Positions 3,217 to 16,099 of a stretch of 26,435 bases of DNA are shown here, one piece after another; the stretch's first letter is position 1; each line of letters starts with the position of its first letter. The position numbers were made by a program, and so were the translations under genes. The stretch lies in IMG/VR virus record IMGVR_UViG_3300009408_000028, positions 1 through 26,435 of that record. One strand, given 5' to 3'. This DNA comes from a virus. A model generated the notes under the pieces. It had not been told where the DNA came from. It searched no databases and saw only the letters and a program-made list of their open reading frames with translations.

Positions 3217-3551
3217 TGAGCGAATCAACAGAAGGCCGCTACTTTTGTCAAGTATGCGGTGACGAGTATGCTAAGTCGGCTAGCGCTGCGCAGCTAGGCT
3301 TTTGCTCGAACAATGACTGCAGCGGGCGCGTTACTGAGCAGAGCCGTGTAGCGCATCCGGCTCACTACGCTGGCAACGATGGAAAGTGTGAGGCTATCGA
3401 GGTTATTGAAGCACACAACCTTAACTTCGCATTAGGTTCAGCTGTGAAGTATATTCTTCGTGCCGGCCGTAAACCTGGAGCTGCATTGAGTGAGGATCTG
3501 CGCAAAGCTGTTTGGTTTATCGAGCGCGAGATCGAGCGCGCAGACGATTGA
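3216..3551 (+). CDS. DUF3310 domain protein (T7 gp1.7-like) with N-terminal zinc ribbon
   Basis: I choose GTG 3216 because it overlaps the previous TAG by one base and has AAGGA nine bases upstream. An in-frame ATG exists at 3096, inside the preceding gene. The 111-aa product begins with a CxxC...CxxxxC zinc ribbon (C11, C14, C30, C35). Residues 47-106 then match the DUF3310 pattern: HPAHYAG, IEVIEAHNLNFALGSAVKYI, LRAGRK and DLRKAVWFIERE. DUF3310 is the domain of phage T7 gp1.7, reported as a nucleotide kinase acting on dTMP/dGMP and linked to dideoxythymidine sensitivity. Its place at the end of a thymidylate synthase-DHFR-dNMP kinase operon agrees with a nucleotide role. The zinc ribbon fusion is noteworthy. 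Activity of this copy is inference. Confidence 0.82.
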   Translation: MSESTEGRYFCQVCGDEYAKSASAAQLGFCSNNDCSGRVTEQSRVAHPAHYAGNDGKCEAIEVIEAHNLNFALGSAVKYILRAGRKPGAALSEDLRKAVWFIEREIERADD

Positions 3552-3580
3552 GTCTAGGCACAAAACCGAAAGGAAGCCCA

Positions 3581-4075
3581 GTGGCTAAGAGCAGACAGAA
3601 GCCTGCGTTTCGAGTAGTCAAAGAGCGCGGTCGTTTGCTCACTCGTAGGCCAGGCAGATCGCGTGCGGCCACAGAAGAGGAGGCTTGGCTATGGAACGAC
3701 CGCCGCGCGCTGCTCGACAGGCTCGAGGAGCTCGAGGAGGAGTTAGCAGGCCGTGAAGCGGCTGATGCCATAGCCGAGACGGCACGAGAAGGCAGAGCGC
3801 TCTGCTACAAGGCACTTGCTACTCGAGCTAAGTTGGTTAAGCAGGCAACAAAGTGTGCGGATTCTCTTCGCGTCCTCTCTAGCGAAGTCAGTGACTTGAT
3901 GAAGGAAGGAAAGAGGGCTAAGCTGAGCACTTTCCGGCTTACTCAAGCTAGAAGCAAGCGCGATGTGGCACGCGATGTTGCTGCGGCAACGACAAGAGAG
4001 GCTAACAACCATATTGCCGCGTGCCGCGAAGTTTGGCGAGTCCTACGAACGGGTCGTGATCCTGACGAGGCCTAA
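3581..4075 (+). CDS. Basic coiled-coil hypothetical protein (164 aa)
   Basis: The start is GTG 3581 with AAAGGAAG about six bases upstream; the longer in-frame ATG at 3512 lies within the DUF3310 gene. The product has a very basic first 35 residues (MAKSRQKPAFRVVKERGRLL), then long charged heptad-like helices (RALLDRLEELEEELAGREAA and later stretches), consistent with a coiled coil. No domain is recognised. It is the last gene of the nucleotide operon and is followed 33 nt later by a strong hairpin, so it may not be tied functionally to thymidylate synthesis. Confidence 0.65.
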   Translation: MAKSRQKPAFRVVKERGRLLTRRPGRSRAATEEEAWLWNDRRALLDRLEELEEELAGREAADAIAETAREGRALCYKALATRAKLVKQATKCADSLRVLSSEVSDLMKEGKRAKLSTFRLTQARSKRDVARDVAAATTREANNHIAACREVWRVLRTGRDPDEA

Positions 4076-4108
4076 CTAAATCGCGGACACGTGGCTTCAT
4101 AAAGCGAT

Positions 4109-4178
4109 AAAACTCGATGACGGAGCTGTGAGAGCTTCTTCCAGGAATGGAGTCCTCACAGCTCCATCATCGAGTTTT
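4109..4178 (+). terminator. 24-bp stem hairpin ending TTTT, likely operon terminator
   Basis: Arms 4109-4132 and 4155-4178 are complementary at 23 of 24 positions, with a 22-nt loop. The left arm starts AAAA and the right arm ends TTTT, as in a bidirectional intrinsic terminator. It lies 33 bases after the last gene of the nucleotide operon. The right arm also takes part in the larger palindrome 4154-4658, so the two structures are mutually exclusive. That could be regulatory (inference). Confidence 0.6.
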
Positions 4179-4658
4179 AGTCGCTCCGCTTGCTTTAGCA
4201 AAGGCTTTAGCGCTAAAAGCGGATGACGGAGTCGATAGATACTCCAACGGAGATTCTTAGTCTAGTGTTAGGTCTCACTATTTAGCCTTTTAGCGCTTAA
4301 GACAAAACTCGATAGAGGAGCAAACACTAGTTCGGTCGAAAAGTACAGCGCAAACTTTCTTTTCTTTTTATAGCGTACTTTTCGATCGAGATAGCGTTCG
4401 CTCCTCTATCGGGTTTCACACTTTGAGCGAGAAGTAAAGCGCAAACTTTCTTTTCTTTTTATAGCGTACTTTTAGACAGAACTAGTGTTCGCTCCTCTAT
4501 CGAGTTTTGTCTTAAGCGCTAAAAGGCTAAATAGTGAGACCTAACACTAGACTAAGAACTCTCACCAACAAAGCTCAGAAGCTCGTCATCAGCTTTTAGC
4601 GCTGAAGCCTTTGCTAAAGCAAGCGGAGCGACTAAAACTCGATGATGGAGTTGTGAGG
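4154..4658. repeat. Nested 505-bp imperfect palindrome with iterated 18-bp motifs
   Basis: Arms 4154-4346 and 4466-4658 are 193 nt each. Outer parts (4154-4228 / 4584-4658) match at 72 of 75 positions and inner parts (4254-4321 / 4491-4558) are perfect over 68 bp. The innermost 25 bp match at 22. The arms are interrupted by two unrelated 25-nt segments at symmetric positions. A motif close to AAAACTCGATnnnGGAGC occurs at 4109 (+), 4161 (-), 4304 (+), 4400 (-), 4491 (-), 4634 (+) and, diverged, at 5894 (+). AGCGCT palindromes recur within the arms. No ORF I believe lies here. Candidate roles are a replication origin with iterons, a structured RNA or a protein-binding partition or packaging site. 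No transposase is near, so I do not call an insertion sequence. Confidence 0.9.
4347..4473 (+). repeat. Two identical 36-bp direct repeats with a pyrimidine tract
   Basis: Positions 4347-4382 and 4438-4473 are identical over 36 bp, 91 bp apart. Each contains the tract CTTTCTTTTCTTTTT and ends TAGCGTACTTTT. The duplication extends, less perfectly, to about 4410 and 4501, each copy ending GCTCCTCTATC. The first copy can fold back on 4311-4346 (31 of 36 positions), so the palindrome centre looks like a duplicated half-hairpin. Confidence 0.85.
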
Positions 4659-4669
4659 ACTTTCAGAAA

Positions 4670-4768
4670 AGAATCTTCGAAAAGTTCGATTTTGCCGTTT
4701 ACTTCTTCGAAGATCTTGGTATAATAGAAGTAGAACAAAGAACATCAACCACAACAACGGAGACAACA
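4670..4768 (+). promoter_or_regulatory. Promoter cassette P1 with inverted repeat and leader
   Basis: A perfect TATAAT lies at 4720-4725 in extended form (TTGGTATAAT). The -35 candidate, TTTACT or GTTTAC, is 16-17 bp upstream. An inverted repeat with a 9-bp core, ATCTTCGAA / TTCGAAGAT, flanks the -35; the right arm fills the -35/-10 spacer, the expected place for an operator. The leader ends ACAACAACGGAGACAACA before the ATG, with CGGAG as ribosome site. The same cassette recurs at about 5035, 5925, 6455 and 6885. Confidence 0.85.
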
Positions 4769-5020
4769 ATGAACGCCAAAACACAAACCGCTTTGATGAA
4801 GCAGCTTGACTATAAAGCACAGCGATCGCACGAGACAGCACTTGAGCTGATCGCGACTTTGCAGCGTAAGCTGACAGCACTTGACGCTGAGTTGCGTAAT
4901 GGTTCAACTATCCATTCAGTCGCGGCTGAAGTCATCCCAAGCCGTTTGGTCGGTGAGCTCAACATGCACTTGGTTGCACGCCGCGATGCCAAGCTTATGC
5001 TCGCGGTTATCAGCGACTGA
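4769..5020 (+). CDS. Small helical hypothetical protein (83 aa)
   Basis: The ATG at 4769 follows the conserved CGGAGACAACA leader of cassette P1. The product is almost entirely helical (KAQRSHETALELIATLQRKL) with a charged coiled-coil-like first half and a C-terminal SRLVGELNMHLVARRDAKLM helix. No domain is recognised. It is a single-gene transcription unit: its stop (TGA 5018-5020) is followed immediately by the next promoter cassette. A small, strongly expressed helical protein in this setting would fit an early host-interaction or regulatory peptide, which is inference only. Confidence 0.7.
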   Translation: MNAKTQTALMKQLDYKAQRSHETALELIATLQRKLTALDAELRNGSTIHSVAAEVIPSRLVGELNMHLVARRDAKLMLAVISD

Positions 5021-5124
5021 AAAGTATGCGGAAAGAATCTTCGGAAAGTTGTTTATTTCTCCGAAGATTCTAGTATAATAGAAGTAGAACAAAGAACATC
5101 AACCACAACAACGGAGACTGAAAG
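5021..5124 (+). promoter_or_regulatory. Promoter cassette P2 with perfect 11-bp inverted repeat
   Basis: TATAAT lies at 5074-5079. The inverted repeat is perfect here: GAATCTTCGGA (5035-5045) and TCCGAAGATTC (5060-5070), 14 nt apart, with the -35 candidate between the arms and the right arm in the spacer. The cassette begins AAAAGTATGCGG straight after the upstream stop. The leader resembles P1 (AACAACGGAGACTGAAAG before the ATG). This is the cleanest copy for defining the putative operator. Confidence 0.85.
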
Positions 5125-5444
5125 ATGAACAACCTTCTCTGGAAACGCAAGATGAAGCACAAAGCTTTCCGCGCTGACCTTGTCAGCCGCTTTGGAGACC
5201 GGCTTTCATATCGCCGCTACCGCGAAGACTATGCGCCGCAAGGCGAGGCGCCTGCAGTTTGTCACTTGTACTATGTTGATGATACTCATATTGGCACGTG
5301 GGTCAAAGGTAGCGGTTGGATTCTTAAGTCCGCCGCTGACATCTACGATCTGCAACCAGCTTCCTCAACGCCGACGAGTCCGCTATCACAGCACTGGAAG
5401 TCTTGCTCAAAGAGCTCAAGGAGCGGTCTCGTGGCCGAAGCTAA
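5125..5444 (+). CDS. Hypothetical protein, apparent -1 frameshift near 5353
   Basis: The ATG at 5125 follows promoter P2. The first about 76 residues (from MNNLLWKRKMKHKAFRADL to KSAADIYDLQ) are in the starting frame. After about 5353 that frame becomes Ser/Pro/Thr-rich and unlike the rest. The -1 frame instead reads TSFLNADESAITALEVLL followed by KELKERSRGRS and TAA at 5442-5444, a convincing amphipathic helix. The stop then overlaps the next gene's start by 14 nt, the same overlap seen at 415-428. I infer a product of about 106 aa with one base missing near CAACC (5353-5357), by sequence error, mutation or recoding. No function is recognised. Confidence 0.5.
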
Positions 5445-5754
5445 GGGCAACTGCTACGAAGCCGCATTCAGCTTCCTGCGCTGTTACGGCCGCTCAGATC
5501 CAAGGTTGCGCCTTGTGCATGCTGTCGTAGTTGGCCAAGGACAGATTGCGGGCCTAGAACACGGCCATGCATGGCTTGAGTCAACTGGCTTGGCGCTCGA
5601 CGTTGCAAACGGTCGTCGTATCGTACTGCCAGCTTCCTACTACCGTGAGCTTGGACAAGCCACACAAGTTCACGTGTATACGCTCAGCGAAGCTCGTGAA
5701 CTTGCGCTCGAGCATGAGCACTACGGGCATTGGGAGCTCGACGTAGAGCTCTAG
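5431..5754 (+). CDS. Predicted Cys-His-Asp hydrolase/transferase-like protein (107 aa)
   Basis: The start is GTG 5431 with AAGGAG seven bases upstream. The frame is open further back to 5125, but that part seems to belong to another gene read in a different frame. The product shows GNCYEAAF (C8), GHAWLE (H46) and LALDVANG (D57), then PASYYRELG and EHYGHWEL. An early Cys on a helix, a His on a strand and a following Asp/Asn is the order of transglutaminase-like and papain-like folds. Small phage proteins with NCYEAA...GHAW...YY are, to my recollection, a recurring unknown group. Substrate is unknown. It is translationally coupled to 5125 and followed by a hairpin at 5794. Confidence 0.65.
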   Translation: MAEAKGNCYEAAFSFLRCYGRSDPRLRLVHAVVVGQGQIAGLEHGHAWLESTGLALDVANGRRIVLPASYYRELGQATQVHVYTLSEARELALEHEHYGHWELDVEL

Positions 5755-5793
5755 CGCCTTACAATACAATCCTGTTGTTGGTTTGTGTTTTCT

Positions 5794-5850
5794 CAGAGCC
5801 TCGTCGCGCCGCCTCTGTTCAAGGCTGGTCGCTTGACGAGGCTCTGCCTT
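5794..5850 (+). terminator. Hairpin with 12-bp perfect stem, possible terminator
   Basis: CAGAGCCTCGTC (5794-5805) and GACGAGGCTCTG (5835-5846) are perfectly complementary, with a 29-nt loop, followed by CCTTTT. It sits 40 bases after the stop at 5754 and before the next promoter cassette, so it probably ends that transcript. The short T run makes an efficient intrinsic terminator uncertain. Confidence 0.5.
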
Positions 5851-5893
5851 TTCCAGGAAACCGAGCGGTGGGCACGTGTCTACTAGCACGACT

Positions 5894-6018
5894 AAAACTC
5901 GCTCACGGAGCTGTGGCGACTCCTGGAAAAGAATTCTCGAAAAGTTCGGTTTTGCCGTTTACAAGTGTGAAGATCCTGGTATAATGAACTCTCACAAGCA
6001 ACACCAACGGAGACAACA
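5894..6018 (+). promoter_or_regulatory. Promoter cassette P3
   Basis: TATAAT at 5981-5986 sits in CCTGGTATAAT (extended -10), with TTGCCGTTTACA upstream containing the -35 candidate. The left arm is GAATTCTCGAA and the right arm GTGTGAAGATC, so the inverted repeat is degraded relative to P2. The leader reads CTCTCACAAGCA then CGGAGACAACA before the ATG. The cassette is preceded at 5894 by a diverged copy of the AAAACTCG...GGAGC motif of the palindrome, followed by GGCGACTCCTGGAAAAG, a segment shared with P1 and P5. Confidence 0.8.
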
Positions 6019-6498
6019 ATGACAACTTTCATGACGCAAACTGAACTCGACGCTTGGAGCAAGCTGAATGACGTGTTTGATGTTGTCAGCAGCATCTGCA
6101 GTGACGGTGACATCCTTAATGAGAGCGAAGAGCTTTCTGACGGCTTTCCGCGAACTGTCGAGTATATGGTTGAGCTTGAAGACAGCGGCGACAAGACCTT
6201 CTACGCCCACTACGAGTACGATTGCGACGCTGGTATTACTTACGCAGACGCGATTATCGTCGAGCGCATGCGTGCTATCGTGTGTGGCTTGACTGACGAC
6301 AATTGGACTGTCGAGCACAAGACAACTCCTAAAGGTCGTTTGGTTAAGACCTTCCGTTGCGACCACGGCGACTCAAGCATCAGATCAGTTTACCGCTCAC
6401 TGAAGCAAGCGCGTGACGCTCACGAGAATGGTCATCCAGAAAAGTATGCGGAAAGAATCTTCGAAAAGTCGTTTATTTCTCCGAAGATTCTGGTATAA
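6019..6498 (+). CDS. Acidic hypothetical protein ending inside the next promoter (159 aa)
   Basis: The ATG at 6019 follows the P3 leader. The product is acidic and mixed alpha/beta, with FPRTVEYMVELEDSGDKTFY as a probable strand pair. Residues about 95-135 (WTVEHKTTPKGRLVKTF, then RSVYRSLKQARDA) resemble the C-terminal domain of the protein at 6966 (WTLTVKVTPKGRAVKTW, then FRSLKTAQAA), so the two share a small domain. The last about 19 residues are encoded by the next promoter cassette, and the stop TAA at 6496-6498 is part of its TATAAT. The same cassette after gene 4769 follows a normal stop, so this gene seems to have lost its original end. Confidence 0.7.
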   Translation: MTTFMTQTELDAWSKLNDVFDVVSSICSDGDILNESEELSDGFPRTVEYMVELEDSGDKTFYAHYEYDCDAGITYADAIIVERMRAIVCGLTDDNWTVEHKTTPKGRLVKTFRCDHGDSSIRSVYRSLKQARDAHENGHPEKYAERIFEKSFISPKILV

Positions 6499-6541
6499 TG
6501 AACTCTCACAAGCAACGTCAACCACAACAACGGAGACAGCC
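6441..6541 (+). promoter_or_regulatory. Promoter cassette P4, embedded in the 3' end of a gene
   Basis: TATAAT lies at 6494-6499 in TCTGGTATAAT. The inverted repeat GAATCTTCGAA (6455-6465) / TCCGAAGATTC (6480-6490) matches at 10 of 11 positions. The cassette starts AAAAGTATGCGG as P2 does. The leader CTCTCACAAGCAA then ACAACAACGGAGACAGCC precedes ATG 6542. The upstream coding frame runs through the cassette and ends in its -10 box. Confidence 0.85.
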
Positions 6542-6832
6542 ATGAACAACAACTTCGACCTTCAAGTTTGGAGCTACAAGCATGAGCTTGCTGATCCAGC
6601 TGGCATGACGCTCAAAGAGCGGCGGAAGAACGTAGTCGCGGCTGGCTGGGGAATCGGTTGCAACCGCTCAGGGGATTGGCTGATTGAAGACGGTTACGCT
6701 ACAGAGCGTGACGCGGAAGAGGGTTTGGCCCGCGTCATGAGCGGAGAGCGTAGCCTCGATGATGAAGCCATTTGGGTCTACTACAACTGGAACGCTGGTT
6801 CTTGTCCTTGCTATGAGTGCAACGGTAAGTGA
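6542..6832 (+). CDS. Hypothetical protein with C-terminal CPCYECNGK (96 aa)
   Basis: The ATG at 6542 follows the P4 leader; the frame's earlier ATG at 6413 is inside the upstream gene. The 96-aa product contains KHELADPAGMTLKERRKNVV, then VAAGWGIGCNRSGDWLIEDG, and ends with C-x-C-x2-C (SCPCYECNGK), possibly half of a metal site or a dimeric zinc clasp. The DWLIEDGYATERDAEEGLA stretch suggests a small alpha/beta fold. No family is recognised. It forms its own transcription unit between P4 and the hairpin at 6845. Confidence 0.7.
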   Translation: MNNNFDLQVWSYKHELADPAGMTLKERRKNVVAAGWGIGCNRSGDWLIEDGYATERDAEEGLARVMSGERSLDDEAIWVYYNWNAGSCPCYECNGK

Positions 6833-6844
6833 GAAAAGTTTTGG

Positions 6845-6873
6845 CGCAAGCGCTTGTTGTTTAAGCGCTTGCG
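6845..6873 (+). terminator. Perfect 11-bp stem hairpin after gene 6542
   Basis: CGCAAGCGCTT (6845-6855) and AAGCGCTTGCG (6863-6873) pair perfectly around a 7-nt GTTGTTT loop. It starts 12 bases after the stop at 6832 and precedes the next promoter cassette. No T tract follows, so it is either a weak terminator, an RNA-stabilising end or a protein site. The AGCGCTT palindromes echo those in the 4154-4658 palindrome. Confidence 0.5.
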
Positions 6874-6877
6874 TCGA

Positions 6878-6965
6878 CTCCAGGAAAGAATTCTCGAAAA
6901 GCCGTTTATTTCTCCGAAGATTCTGGTATAATGAACTCTCACAAGCAGCAACAACGGAGACAACA
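6878..6965 (+). promoter_or_regulatory. Promoter cassette P5
   Basis: TATAAT lies at 6927-6932 in TCTGGTATAAT. The right arm TCCGAAGATTC is intact (6913-6923) and the left arm is GAATTCTCGAA (6888-6898), as in P3. The segment between the arms is shorter than in P2/P4. The leader CTCTCACAAGCA, then ACAACGGAGACAACA, precedes ATG 6966. The upstream GACTCCAGGAAAG is shared with P3. Confidence 0.82.
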
Positions 6966-8357
6966 ATGAACACTTTTACCCGCCAGCTGAACACCGCCGA
7001 TTATGCTGCGCTCATTAGCATGACCAACAGAGTCAACAAGCGGATCGACAGAGTCAACAAGGCGCACACGCTGTTCGACAATGTCGCGCTTGTCCACAAT
7101 TCAGCAGAAGCGGTCATGGGCATCGACGGCAAGCGCGAAGTCATTCACACTGTGACCGTAACCGTCCCCACGACCGAAGCGATCTGCCGTCCCGGTTACG
7201 CACTGCTTGCTATCATTACTAATGCAGACGAGACAAGCCTTAAAGACGGTGACAAAAACCGCCTTGTGTCCCGCGTCAATAGCACGGACGTCAACCTTTC
7301 CTGGACGCGGACTTGCAAGCCAACTTGCTATGAGTGCGGTCGCGCAGTTCACCGCAAACGCTTGTTTGCCGTTGCCACGCCGAGTGGCATGGTTGAGCTC
7401 TTTGGGGGCAAGTGCGTCGAAGCGTTCATTCCGAAAGGCAACACGAGCTACTTGAATATCCTCGAAGAGGTGTGCGCCTTCGAGAATCTTCCAGCTGGTT
7501 TTGGTGGCAATGATCCTTGGCACTACAGCGTTAAAGATGTTCTGCAAGTTACGGCACAGTGGCTGACCATTGCGCCGTTTGTTCGGTCGGGTGAAGACAA
7601 TTCGACGCGTGACTGCGTTCAGCACGTGCTTGACTTTGGTGGCATGTGCAAGAGCACTAACTGCTACATCTGTCAAGAGTGGCCTAAGCACGGCTTGACT
7701 GAAGAAGCGGCCGCTAAGATCGCGGACGATGCAAGCGGCTACGCCACAAGTGATAGCTTTGGCAACAGCGACTATGCTGGCAACTTGCGGGCTGTTATTA
7801 ACTGTGGGATCGTGACACCACGCAAAATGGGCTTGGCCGTCTCGGCCGTCTCCGTTTGGAACCGTGAAGTTGAGCGCAAGATCATGGAGCAAGCAGAAGT
7901 CAACGGCGGCTACATTGACGAGAATGTTGGAGACAAAATCAGCGTTGACGCGACCCTCGTATCTGTGAGAGACGGCGGCGGTATCTACGGCGGCTCGATC
8001 GTCAAGCTGTTGACCGCCAATGGAAAAGTTCTTTGCTGGTTTGCTAGCCGCACGCCTTCCTTTCCGATCGGAGCCAAAGTGCACGTCCTTGCTACCGTCA
8101 AGCGCAAAGACGAGTTCAGAGGCCAGCCGAGTAACCTAATCACTCGTGCAAAGCTGACTACGGCAGCGCCTGAGACGGTCAAGCCTGCTAAACCAGCCGC
8201 CGTGAAAGTGCCTGCGGCGTCCGTGACTGATCTTCCCGAAGGTTGGACCCTTACCGTCAAGGTCACGCCGAAAGGTCGCGCTGTCAAGACGTGGCGTAGT
8301 CCTGAAGGCAAGGCTTTCCGTTCACTCAAAACCGCTCAAGCCGCTTGGGAAGCTTGA
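6966..8357 (+). CDS. Zinc-binding/OB-fold-like protein with MBD-like C-terminus (463 aa)
   Basis: The start is ATG 6966 after the P5 leader; an in-frame ATG at 6759 is inside the previous gene. Residues 117-150 hold a Cys cluster (CKPTCYECG ... FGGKC) typical of a zinc ribbon, and C228-C236 (CKSTNCYIC) may be a second site. Residues about 320-400 (VGDKISVDATLVSVRDGGG, then KVHVLATVKRKDEFRGQP) look like an OB-fold barrel, as in many phage nucleic-acid-binding proteins. After a Pro/Ala/Lys linker, residues 423-463 (LPEGWTLTVKV, then WRSPEGKAFRSLKTAQAAW) resemble the methyl-CpG-binding-domain consensus GW...SPxGKxFRS. The overall family is unrecognised; nucleic-acid binding is inference. It is by far the largest early-region protein. 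Confidence 0.75.
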   Translation: MNTFTRQLNTADYAALISMTNRVNKRIDRVNKAHTLFDNVALVHNSAEAVMGIDGKREVIHTVTVTVPTTEAICRPGYALLAIITNADETSLKDGDKNRLVSRVNSTDVNLSWTRTCKPTCYECGRAVHRKRLFAVATPSGMVELFGGKCVEAFIPKGNTSYLNILEEVCAFENLPAGFGGNDPWHYSVKDVLQVTAQWLTIAPFVRSGEDNSTRDCVQHVLDFGGMCKSTNCYICQEWPKHGLTEEAAAKIADDASGYATSDSFGNSDYAGNLRAVINCGIVTPRKMGLAVSAVSVWNREVERKIMEQAEVNGGYIDENVGDKISVDATLVSVRDGGGIYGGSIVKLLTANGKVLCWFASRTPSFPIGAKVHVLATVKRKDEFRGQPSNLITRAKLTTAAPETVKPAKPAAVKVPAASVTDLPEGWTLTVKVTPKGRAVKTWRSPEGKAFRSLKTAQAAWEA

Positions 8358-11682: not shown

Positions 11683-11980
11683 GGGTGGCTCGCAGCGTGA
11701 GCGCGACGGCCGCGATATTAGGTGGTTTCAGCCCGGGTATGAGTATTGGAGTGATCGACCCGGGAATAAGAATGGGGCCTTTCAGACAGGTCGGTGGACT
11801 AAAACTTGGACCCATCGGGCTGAGCGAAGACAAGCTAAGAAATGTGTGGAAGAAGCTGTCGTAAAACAAAATGAAATGCTGGGCTTTAGGGGCTGCGTTT
11901 CTTCGCAGCCTTTTCTACAGCGAGGGGGCCCTAAGGTGCCTTTTTTTGGAAAACTGAGGCCTGGGGCCTTTTTGGTGTAG
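11666..11980 (+). CDS. Basic protein whose frame runs through the terminators
   Basis: ATG 11666 overlaps the previous gene. Residues 1-70 are basic and aromatic (MSRTFRGGSQRERDGRDIRW, then WTKTWTHRAERRQAKKC), as in a nucleic-acid-binding tail. The last about 35 residues (from GFRGCVSSQPFLQRGGP to the end) are read from three hairpin/T-tract terminators at 11891-11974, so that part is unlikely to be under protein-level selection. The native protein may originally have ended near 11880, with loss of a stop. Function is unknown. Confidence 0.5.
   Translation: MSRTFRGGSQRERDGRDIRWFQPGYEYWSDRPGNKNGAFQTGRWTKTWTHRAERRQAKKCVEEAVVKQNEMLGFRGCVSSQPFLQRGGPKVPFFGKLRPGAFLV
11891..11916 (+). terminator. 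Intrinsic terminator, first of three
   Basis: GGCTGCG (11891-11897) and CGCAGCC (11904-11910) form a perfect 7-bp GC-rich stem with a 6-nt loop, followed by TTTTCT. It is a classic rho-independent form at the end of the 8439-11980 operon. Confidence 0.8.
11924..11947 (+). terminator. Intrinsic terminator, second of three
   Basis: GGGGCCCTAAGGTGCC can fold with GGC/GCC closing pairs and an internal CC/GG pair (one bulge), followed directly by seven T residues (11941-11947). The stem is weaker but the T tract is long. Confidence 0.6.
11957..11974 (+). terminator. Intrinsic terminator, third of three
   Basis: AGGCC (11957-11961) pairs with GGCCT (11965-11969) around a 3-nt loop, followed by a T run. 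Together with the two upstream hairpins it gives a triple barrier to early transcripts entering the late region. Confidence 0.6.
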
Positions 11981-12284
11981 TAATGCTTGGAAACACTGCC
12001 TCCGGGAAGGGCTTTACTACTCATTTCTTAGGGTATATATATAGAGCCGCTTAAAAAACGCTCGCTAAGAGGTGGCGGAAAAGCGTAAAGATTGGGGTAA
12101 AGATTGGGATTGTTTTTTACTCTTTTTCGTTAATTTATTTATTGTATTTAAGTATATATATATTTTATACGCAGTCCCGCGTGCCCACGACGTGTATACT
12201 GCGACGTAGACTGTATATACCCCTAGAAATCAGTAGTAAACCTGACCACTTTATGGGGTATACTCGCTAGCAAAGGAGGCCACT
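11981..12284. other. AT-rich intergenic region before the late genes
   Basis: No believable ORF occurs in these 304 bases. Runs such as GTATATATATAG (12033-12044) and a T/A-rich stretch 12111-12170 make it clearly more AT-rich than its surroundings. It holds a tandem 12-bp repeat (12085-12108), an 8-bp inverted pair TATACCCC (12216-12223) / GGGGTATA (12255-12262), and TATACT hexamers at 12195 and 12259. None has a convincing -35, and the second lies too close to the AAAGGAGG ribosome site at 12270 to leave a leader. Late transcription probably starts here, perhaps with an activator or a phage polymerase; origin-like melting is another option. Confidence 0.6.
12085..12108 (+). repeat. Tandem 12-bp repeat
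   Basis: GTAAAGATTGGG occurs twice head-to-tail (12085-12096, 12097-12108), followed by ATTG and then T-rich DNA. It may be paired binding sites for an activator of the late promoter or an origin iteron; nothing else identifies it. Confidence 0.7.
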
Positions 12285-15475: not shown

Positions 15476-16099
15476 ATGTCGTTCCTCGCAATGGCTGTTT
15501 CGGATGCTGGTTGGCTTAGCTCTGGTGCGGGCGCAATCTTGCTGACATTCTTAACAACCAAGTTCTGGCCAGAAATCGTTGAGTACTTCAAGCGCTCAGA
15601 AAAGCGCGAAGTCGCTGCCGAACAAGCAGCTGCTTCGGCGCCAGAAAAGGCTCTCGCTCGTGCCAAGACTGCGCAAGAGCAGGCCTTAGAGCTCGCTGCA
15701 AGCATCTCCAAGAGTGAGGAAGCTAAGCGAATCGCATGGCAGGGCGAAATTCGGCAAAGCTATATTCCGGTCATCGCTGAAATCAAGCGCGATAAGGCTT
15801 CTGACATAGAGCAGCTCCGAACCACATTCGAGGCTGCCATTGCAGAACTTCGCCAAGATCGGGACTATTGGCGACAGCAAACACACGAGCTTAAAGATGA
15901 GCTACTTGCCGCACTGGTTGACAGCACAGAAACACTTGACGCGCTCAAGGAAACGGTCGCTGAACTCGGTGAGACTTTCGCCGACAAGCTAGCTACAAGC
16001 GATGCGCTAATGGCTCTCACTTACAAAACGCTGAAAGGAAGTTCCAATGGCAGCGACTCCTCCTCCTCCTCCTCCTCCGGCATATTCGGAGGCAGCTGA
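15476..16099 (+). CDS. Membrane-anchored coiled-coil protein (207 aa)
   Basis: The ATG at 15476 has only a weak ribosome site; ATG 15491 is an alternative. Residues about 12-32 (GWLSSGAGAILLTFLTTKFW) are a single hydrophobic segment, followed by a basic stretch and a long coiled coil (about 35-170) rich in Ala/Glu/Gln. It ends with a Ser-rich tail of seven Ser encoded by a TCC microsatellite. A membrane anchor plus long coiled coil resembles an inner-membrane spanin or another lysis-associated protein, but the position after the terminase is the only support. Its 3' end overlaps the next gene by 53 nt. Confidence 0.65.
   Translation: MSFLAMAVSDAGWLSSGAGAILLTFLTTKFWPEIVEYFKRSEKREVAAEQAAASAPEKALARAKTAQEQALELAASISKSEEAKRIAWQGEIRQSYIPVIAEIKRDKASDIEQLRTTFEAAIAELRQDRDYWRQQTHELKDELLAALVDSTETLDALKETVAELGETFADKLATSDALMALTYKTLKGSSNGSDSSSSSSSGIFGGS

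Follow-up and report, generated by a model that had tools for sequence, protein, structure and literature searches.

At the boundary between a nucleotide-metabolism operon and a promoter array, a tailed phage carries a 511-bp interrupted palindrome, which is a cluster of nested fold-backs, a point missed by the first-pass annotation of this DNA. We consider it most probable, at roughly 40% and judging from the sequence, that this hairpin cluster arose from the phage's own promoter-associated module by fold-back template switching and that it may serve as an operon-boundary barrier or 3'-end element.

The window, meaning the whole stretch of DNA analysed, is a 26.4-kb IMG/VR record of this phage, and its + strand holds the likely genes. 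Another contig from this phage, L009, has 99.99% identity to the window across 13.5 kb; it starts at window position 11904 and carries the sequence about 14 kb further, into portal, head, tail tape-measure and other structural genes. Position 1 of L009 falls within a hairpin (GGCTGCGTTTCTTCGCAGCC, then TTTT), and this end is either an assembly break or else a genome end. The genes on the 5' side of the palindrome encode a dihydrofolate reductase, a thymidylate-kinase-like protein and a DUF3310/nucleotide-kinase-like protein. The last ORF of this operon stops at 4075, the next ORF begins at 4769, and the palindrome lies between the operon end and the first of five related promoter cassettes. 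Apart from the overlap of one antisense ORF (4632-4907), no ORF of at least 60 aa occurs in the palindrome. The ORF map and the cassettes thus bear out the earlier description of a phage intergenic region adjoining a promoter array.

The earlier base counts for the arms were likewise exact: arms at 4154-4346 and 4466-4658 with, from the outside inwards, 72 of 75 matches, 25 unrelated positions, 68 of 68 matches and 22 of 25 matches. When 4151-4346 is set against the reverse-complemented 4466-4661, the mismatches fall at 4161, 4208 and 4221 in the outer 75 positions and at 4322, 4334 and 4338 in the inner 25, and the symmetry is seen to reach 3 nt further on each side, which gives the 511 bp from 4151 to 4661. 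The operon end and the parts of the palindrome are as follows.

3512 to 4075, plus strand: last ORF of the upstream nucleotide-metabolism operon, no family match
4151 to 4228, plus strand: outer left arm, 78 nt, pairs with 4584-4661 (96%)
4229 to 4253, plus strand: left 25-nt non-complementary segment
4254 to 4346, plus strand: inner left arm, 93 nt, including the perfect 68-nt tract 4254-4321
4347 to 4465, plus strand: asymmetric centre, 119 nt, 39% GC, T-rich tract present twice
4466 to 4558, plus strand: inner right arm
4559 to 4583, plus strand: right 25-nt non-complementary segment, at the mirror position
4584 to 4661, plus strand: outer right arm, whose end runs into the first promoter cassette

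With long, highly complementary inverted arms around a non-palindromic centre, the element is an interrupted palindrome or quasi-palindrome, and it is far beyond chance: in 1.75 Mb of this phage and its TerL relatives, the best other inverted repeat scores 31, compared with 84 and 69 for the two arm blocks. Gapped, direct, inverted and reversed comparisons of the two 25-nt blocks yielded no similarity to each other above that of shuffles, and the shuffle test thus does not support the idea that they are inverted or shifted versions of each other. Both blocks weakly resemble promoter leaders (best p about 0.002-0.004, uncorrected, in 20 tests). An assembly artefact, in the form of a fold-back read or a chimera, is very improbable. 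The window is a metagenome contig and L009, starting at 11904, does not cover the palindrome; however, one would expect a fold-back artefact to leave arms without differences, and these arms differ at six single positions and across 25 nt. Moreover, the centre lacks symmetry, and the promoter cassette at 5889 has homology to both ends.

The nesting becomes apparent from the following local hairpins, repeats and copies of a 17-nt core.

4103 to 4185, plus strand: local hairpin, right arm in common with the left end of the palindrome, about -54 kcal/mol
4109 to 4125, plus strand: exact 17-nt core AAAACTCGATnnnGGAG
4162 (minus strand), 4304 (plus), 4492 (minus) and 4634 (plus): further exact core copies
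4215 (plus strand, 3 mismatches) and 4401 (minus strand, 2 mismatches): diverged core copies
about 4581, minus strand: core copy mirroring that at 4215, more than 3 mismatches
4305 to 4416, plus strand: local hairpin with a 28-nt loop, -59.5 kcal/mol
4337 to 4416, plus strand: copy 1 of an 80-nt direct repeat
4375 to 4416, plus strand: diverged third inner-arm copy, located in the centre, pairs with 4305-4346 (86%)
4428 to 4507, plus strand: copy 2 of the direct repeat, 91 nt downstream, 89% relative to copy 1
5894 to 5910, plus strand: best core copy outside the palindrome, 1 mismatch, within the promoter cassette 5889-5985

The left end of the palindrome (4155-4179) pairs additionally with 4108-4132, and part of the 80-nt direct repeat falls in the palindrome centre. 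About eight core copies in both orientations run through the element. All five exact copies in the window lie within the 582 bases from 4080 to 4661, and at up to 3 mismatches this interval contains eight matches, one of which overlaps another on the opposite strand. The first three copies are spaced 53 nt apart in alternating orientation (4109 plus, 4162 minus, 4215 plus). Similarity between copies is mixed, with 96-97% for the arms and 86-89% for the third copy, and this difference fits homogenisation of the arms.

The promoter cassettes that follow include a likely source of the repeated module.

4669 to 4764, plus strand: first promoter cassette, with dyad, -35 TTTACT, -10 TATAAT (4720-4725) and leader
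about 5030, 5926, 6450 and 6883: sibling cassettes

TATAAT occurs in the five cassettes at about 4720, 5074, 5980, 6494 and 6927, with small unknown genes behind them. The cassettes from 4669 to 6935 share a dyad around the -35 box (for example AGAATCTTCGGA ... TCCGAAGATTCT at about 5035), which has its right arm in the -35/-10 spacer and is degenerate in the 5926 cassette; this dyad is a possible operator of a phage regulator. The left end of the palindrome matches the 5889 cassette in inverted orientation (4149-4183 versus 5889-5923, 35 nt) and the right end matches the same cassette (4629-4661 versus 5889-5921). The right-hand match crosses the palindrome boundary unbroken into the promoter (4629-4725 versus 5889-5985, 80%). 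Both boundaries match one cassette and the core recurs at 5894, 5' of another promoter, which suggests that the phage's own module, rather than a foreign insert, supplied the material of the palindrome.

This kinship also bears on the suggestion that the long inverted arms belong to a non-autonomous, MITE-like fold-back mobile element or to a telomere junction of a linear genome, which we regard as extremely improbable. A fold-back transposable element should show discrete ends and either further copies or a transposase, but the homology to the 5889 cassette runs straight across the right boundary and the window holds no second copy of the whole element. A replicated telomere junction, as at a protelomerase target, should have a symmetric centre, and the centre here is asymmetric. 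No transposase, recombinase or telomere resolvase gene was found in the two contigs of this incomplete genome, where the profile search for transposases and recombinases covered the Y1 transposase and tyrosine recombinase families. The absence of mobile genes recorded at first pass thus holds for these two families in both contigs of the incomplete genome, and neither contig of it contains a reverse transcriptase gene that would point to a retron-type inverted repeat.

Alternatively, the element might be a cluster of binding sites for a phage regulator, in which the 17-nt core would be the operator or enhancer site and the palindrome would follow from the two orientations. Clustered phage operators are exemplified by the stoperators of mycobacteriophage L5, which share with the present element a short motif repeated in non-coding DNA near promoters. 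About eight cores do lie beside the first promoter and one lies upstream of the promoter at 5958-5985. Unlike the stoperators, however, the core copies are set in long, near-identical arms and have no known regulator; the 68 perfect arm bases include sequence between cores, which operators need not match, and the core is lacking in three of the five cassettes. A regulator-binding cluster is thus unlikely.

Ordinary hairpins precede two other cassettes, at about 5794-5847 (-36 kcal/mol) and 6841-6878 (-27.5 kcal/mol), and hence the palindrome stands where an operon-boundary hairpin is expected. Folding, which had been proposed at first pass as a check on the palindrome, predicts -371 kcal/mol for the RNA 4080-4720 versus a shuffle mean of -175 (z -33, 20 shuffles) and -225 versus -82 for the same region as DNA (z -25). 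Minimum-energy folds at growing 3' ends contain the local hairpins first and then the long stem, which comprises about 170 pairs when complete. The element is probably not a canonical intrinsic terminator. A pattern scan for terminators, which considers only loops of 3-8, returned none in the palindrome, and the hairpin 4103-4185, with TTTT inside its 3' arm followed by AGTCG, is at best a weak terminator match; its stem is far longer than those of typical intrinsic terminators and only four Ts lie near its end. Rfam yielded no family at the gathering threshold; the only hits were microRNA models scoring far below theirs, which any hairpin would produce.

Phage intergenic hairpins that are processed by RNase III or act as intrinsic terminators are well known, for example in T7 early mRNA and lambda sib. 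Like them, the element has hairpins in the interval from the end of an operon to the promoter that follows; it differs in being many times longer and in its weak T-run, and any cleavage or termination at it is putative. In the operon-boundary reading, a short element (the core plus flanks, with one copy in the 5889 cassette) would have been copied repeatedly, forwards and backwards, in the interval from the operon end to the first array promoter. The copies would then have been extended, and the arms kept alike, by fold-back template switching until the present palindrome resulted. In RNA read through from the operon, the local hairpins 4103-4185 and 4305-4416 would form first, and once the right arm is made this RNA would refold into the single long stem. 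The folded RNA might end or block read-through into the promoter array and/or mark the 3' terminus of the upstream mRNA and protect it; processing would be expected to be by RNase III. We infer this template-switch origin, the transcription through the element and the barrier function from the concentration of core copies in 4080-4661, the match of the ends to the 5889 cassette, the position between the stop codon at 4075 and the -10 box at 4720-4725, the hairpins in front of two other cassettes and the switch from local to long folds.

Two further readings assign the structure itself a role. A purpose-made long double-stranded RNA, for instance a decoy for RNase III or for RNA-sensing host defence, is suggested by the predicted stem, but no promoter was found inside the palindrome, no Rfam family was matched at the gathering threshold and no relatives were found, and such a role is highly improbable. 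More broadly, it is quite unlikely that the palindrome represents a novel type of phage element, a self-homogenising hairpin cluster that grew from a promoter-associated module and acts as long double-stranded RNA or as a DNA cruciform to control the promoter array or to occupy a host nuclease or RNA sensor.

The first-pass annotation argued that selection must keep so long a palindrome. In E. coli, a 480-bp interrupted palindrome with a 20-bp spacer is lethal only in recombination-deficient cells expressing SbcCD and is viable in recombination-proficient cells (PMC4245961), and template switching can homogenise palindrome arms without selection for function (PMC8604942). Since a palindrome with a 20-bp spacer is viable and the spacer here is 119 bp, the argument from selection does not follow; nor is the likeness of the arms in itself proof of a selected function, because template switching may keep them alike. 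The E. coli constructs of 246 and 480 bp (PMC4245961) have in common with the phage element long near-perfect arms, an asymmetric centre and the possibility of single-strand hairpins. In contrast to them, the phage element is natural, has a centre of 119 bp instead of 20-24 and adds two 25-nt unpaired blocks and extra nested copies.

The main rival to the operon-boundary reading follows from these considerations. It holds that the quasi-palindrome is a functionless by-product of repeated fold-back template switching during phage replication, homogenised by more switching and tolerated because a centre of 119 bp makes cruciform extrusion difficult. Consistent with it are the nested copies in both orientations, their mixed divergence, a perfect tract flanked by mismatches and an unrelated block, and the absence of the element from everything else searched, as are published findings on how arms become homogenised (PMC8604942) and on how interrupted palindromes are tolerated (PMC4245961). 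However, a phage genome has little room to spare, and a non-coding repeat region of 580 bp placed precisely where an operon ends and a promoter array starts would be suspicious for a scar. We therefore consider a functionless by-product somewhat unlikely.

An origin of replication or another DNA-level replication signal, also proposed at first pass, is improbable. The element is AT-rich (43% GC versus 54%) and combines repeats and inverted repeats in a non-coding gap, but no DnaA-box-like TTATNCACA occurs anywhere in the window and the GC skew changes only mildly at the palindrome rather than switching; a phage-specific initiator site would escape this test. The gap at 11980-12284 is a better candidate, with AT tracts, a 27-nt inverted repeat and a skew that goes from about +0.2 to 0, and in the TerL relatives L061, L037 and L077 long inverted repeats lie about 1 kb on the upstream side of TerL. 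This AT-rich, non-coding gap lies upstream of the terminase genes, carries its inverted repeat at 12013-12039/12214-12240 and marks a sharp end of positive GC skew, a strong change; it is a candidate origin, packaging or control region. The repeats of the three relatives are 48-55 nt long (L061, 8648-8800; L037, 4983-5171; L077, 1064-1277), and MW202657.1 (L008) has a 60-nt inverted repeat (15646-15878; 83%, 113-nt loop) about 4 kb upstream of TerL.

The element is a singleton known from one assembly. Nucleotide searches, another check proposed at first pass, found no related arrangement in phage genomes, and the palindrome DNA had no homologue in phages or plasmids, nor in IMG/VR and GTDB, which were searched with two exact patterns and one exact pattern, respectively. 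The flanking genes led to no relatives in IMG/VR, in collections that may leave out very near records; ORF 145-894 had no match in phages and the 6969-8357 protein only remote phage matches. TerL relatives are about 46% identical (80 loci); the palindrome was absent from all 5 of their records tested for it, and the 6969-8357 protein from all 29 tested. A search of IMG/VR with the cassette pattern returned four contigs, which we judged to be chance matches with no likeness to the window beyond 26 nt, and a literature search on long palindromes in phage genomes gave nothing direct.

A palindrome of such quality was thus not seen in the sampled relatives; the element is real in the sequence and unusual, and an ordinary role for it is plausible. 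If functional, it would be an extreme case of a hairpin that bounds a phage operon, and would offer a natural example in which to study the tolerance of cells and phages towards long interrupted palindromes. If not functional, it would preserve a legible history of fold-back copying, because the module from which it probably arose is still present at another site in this phage genome.
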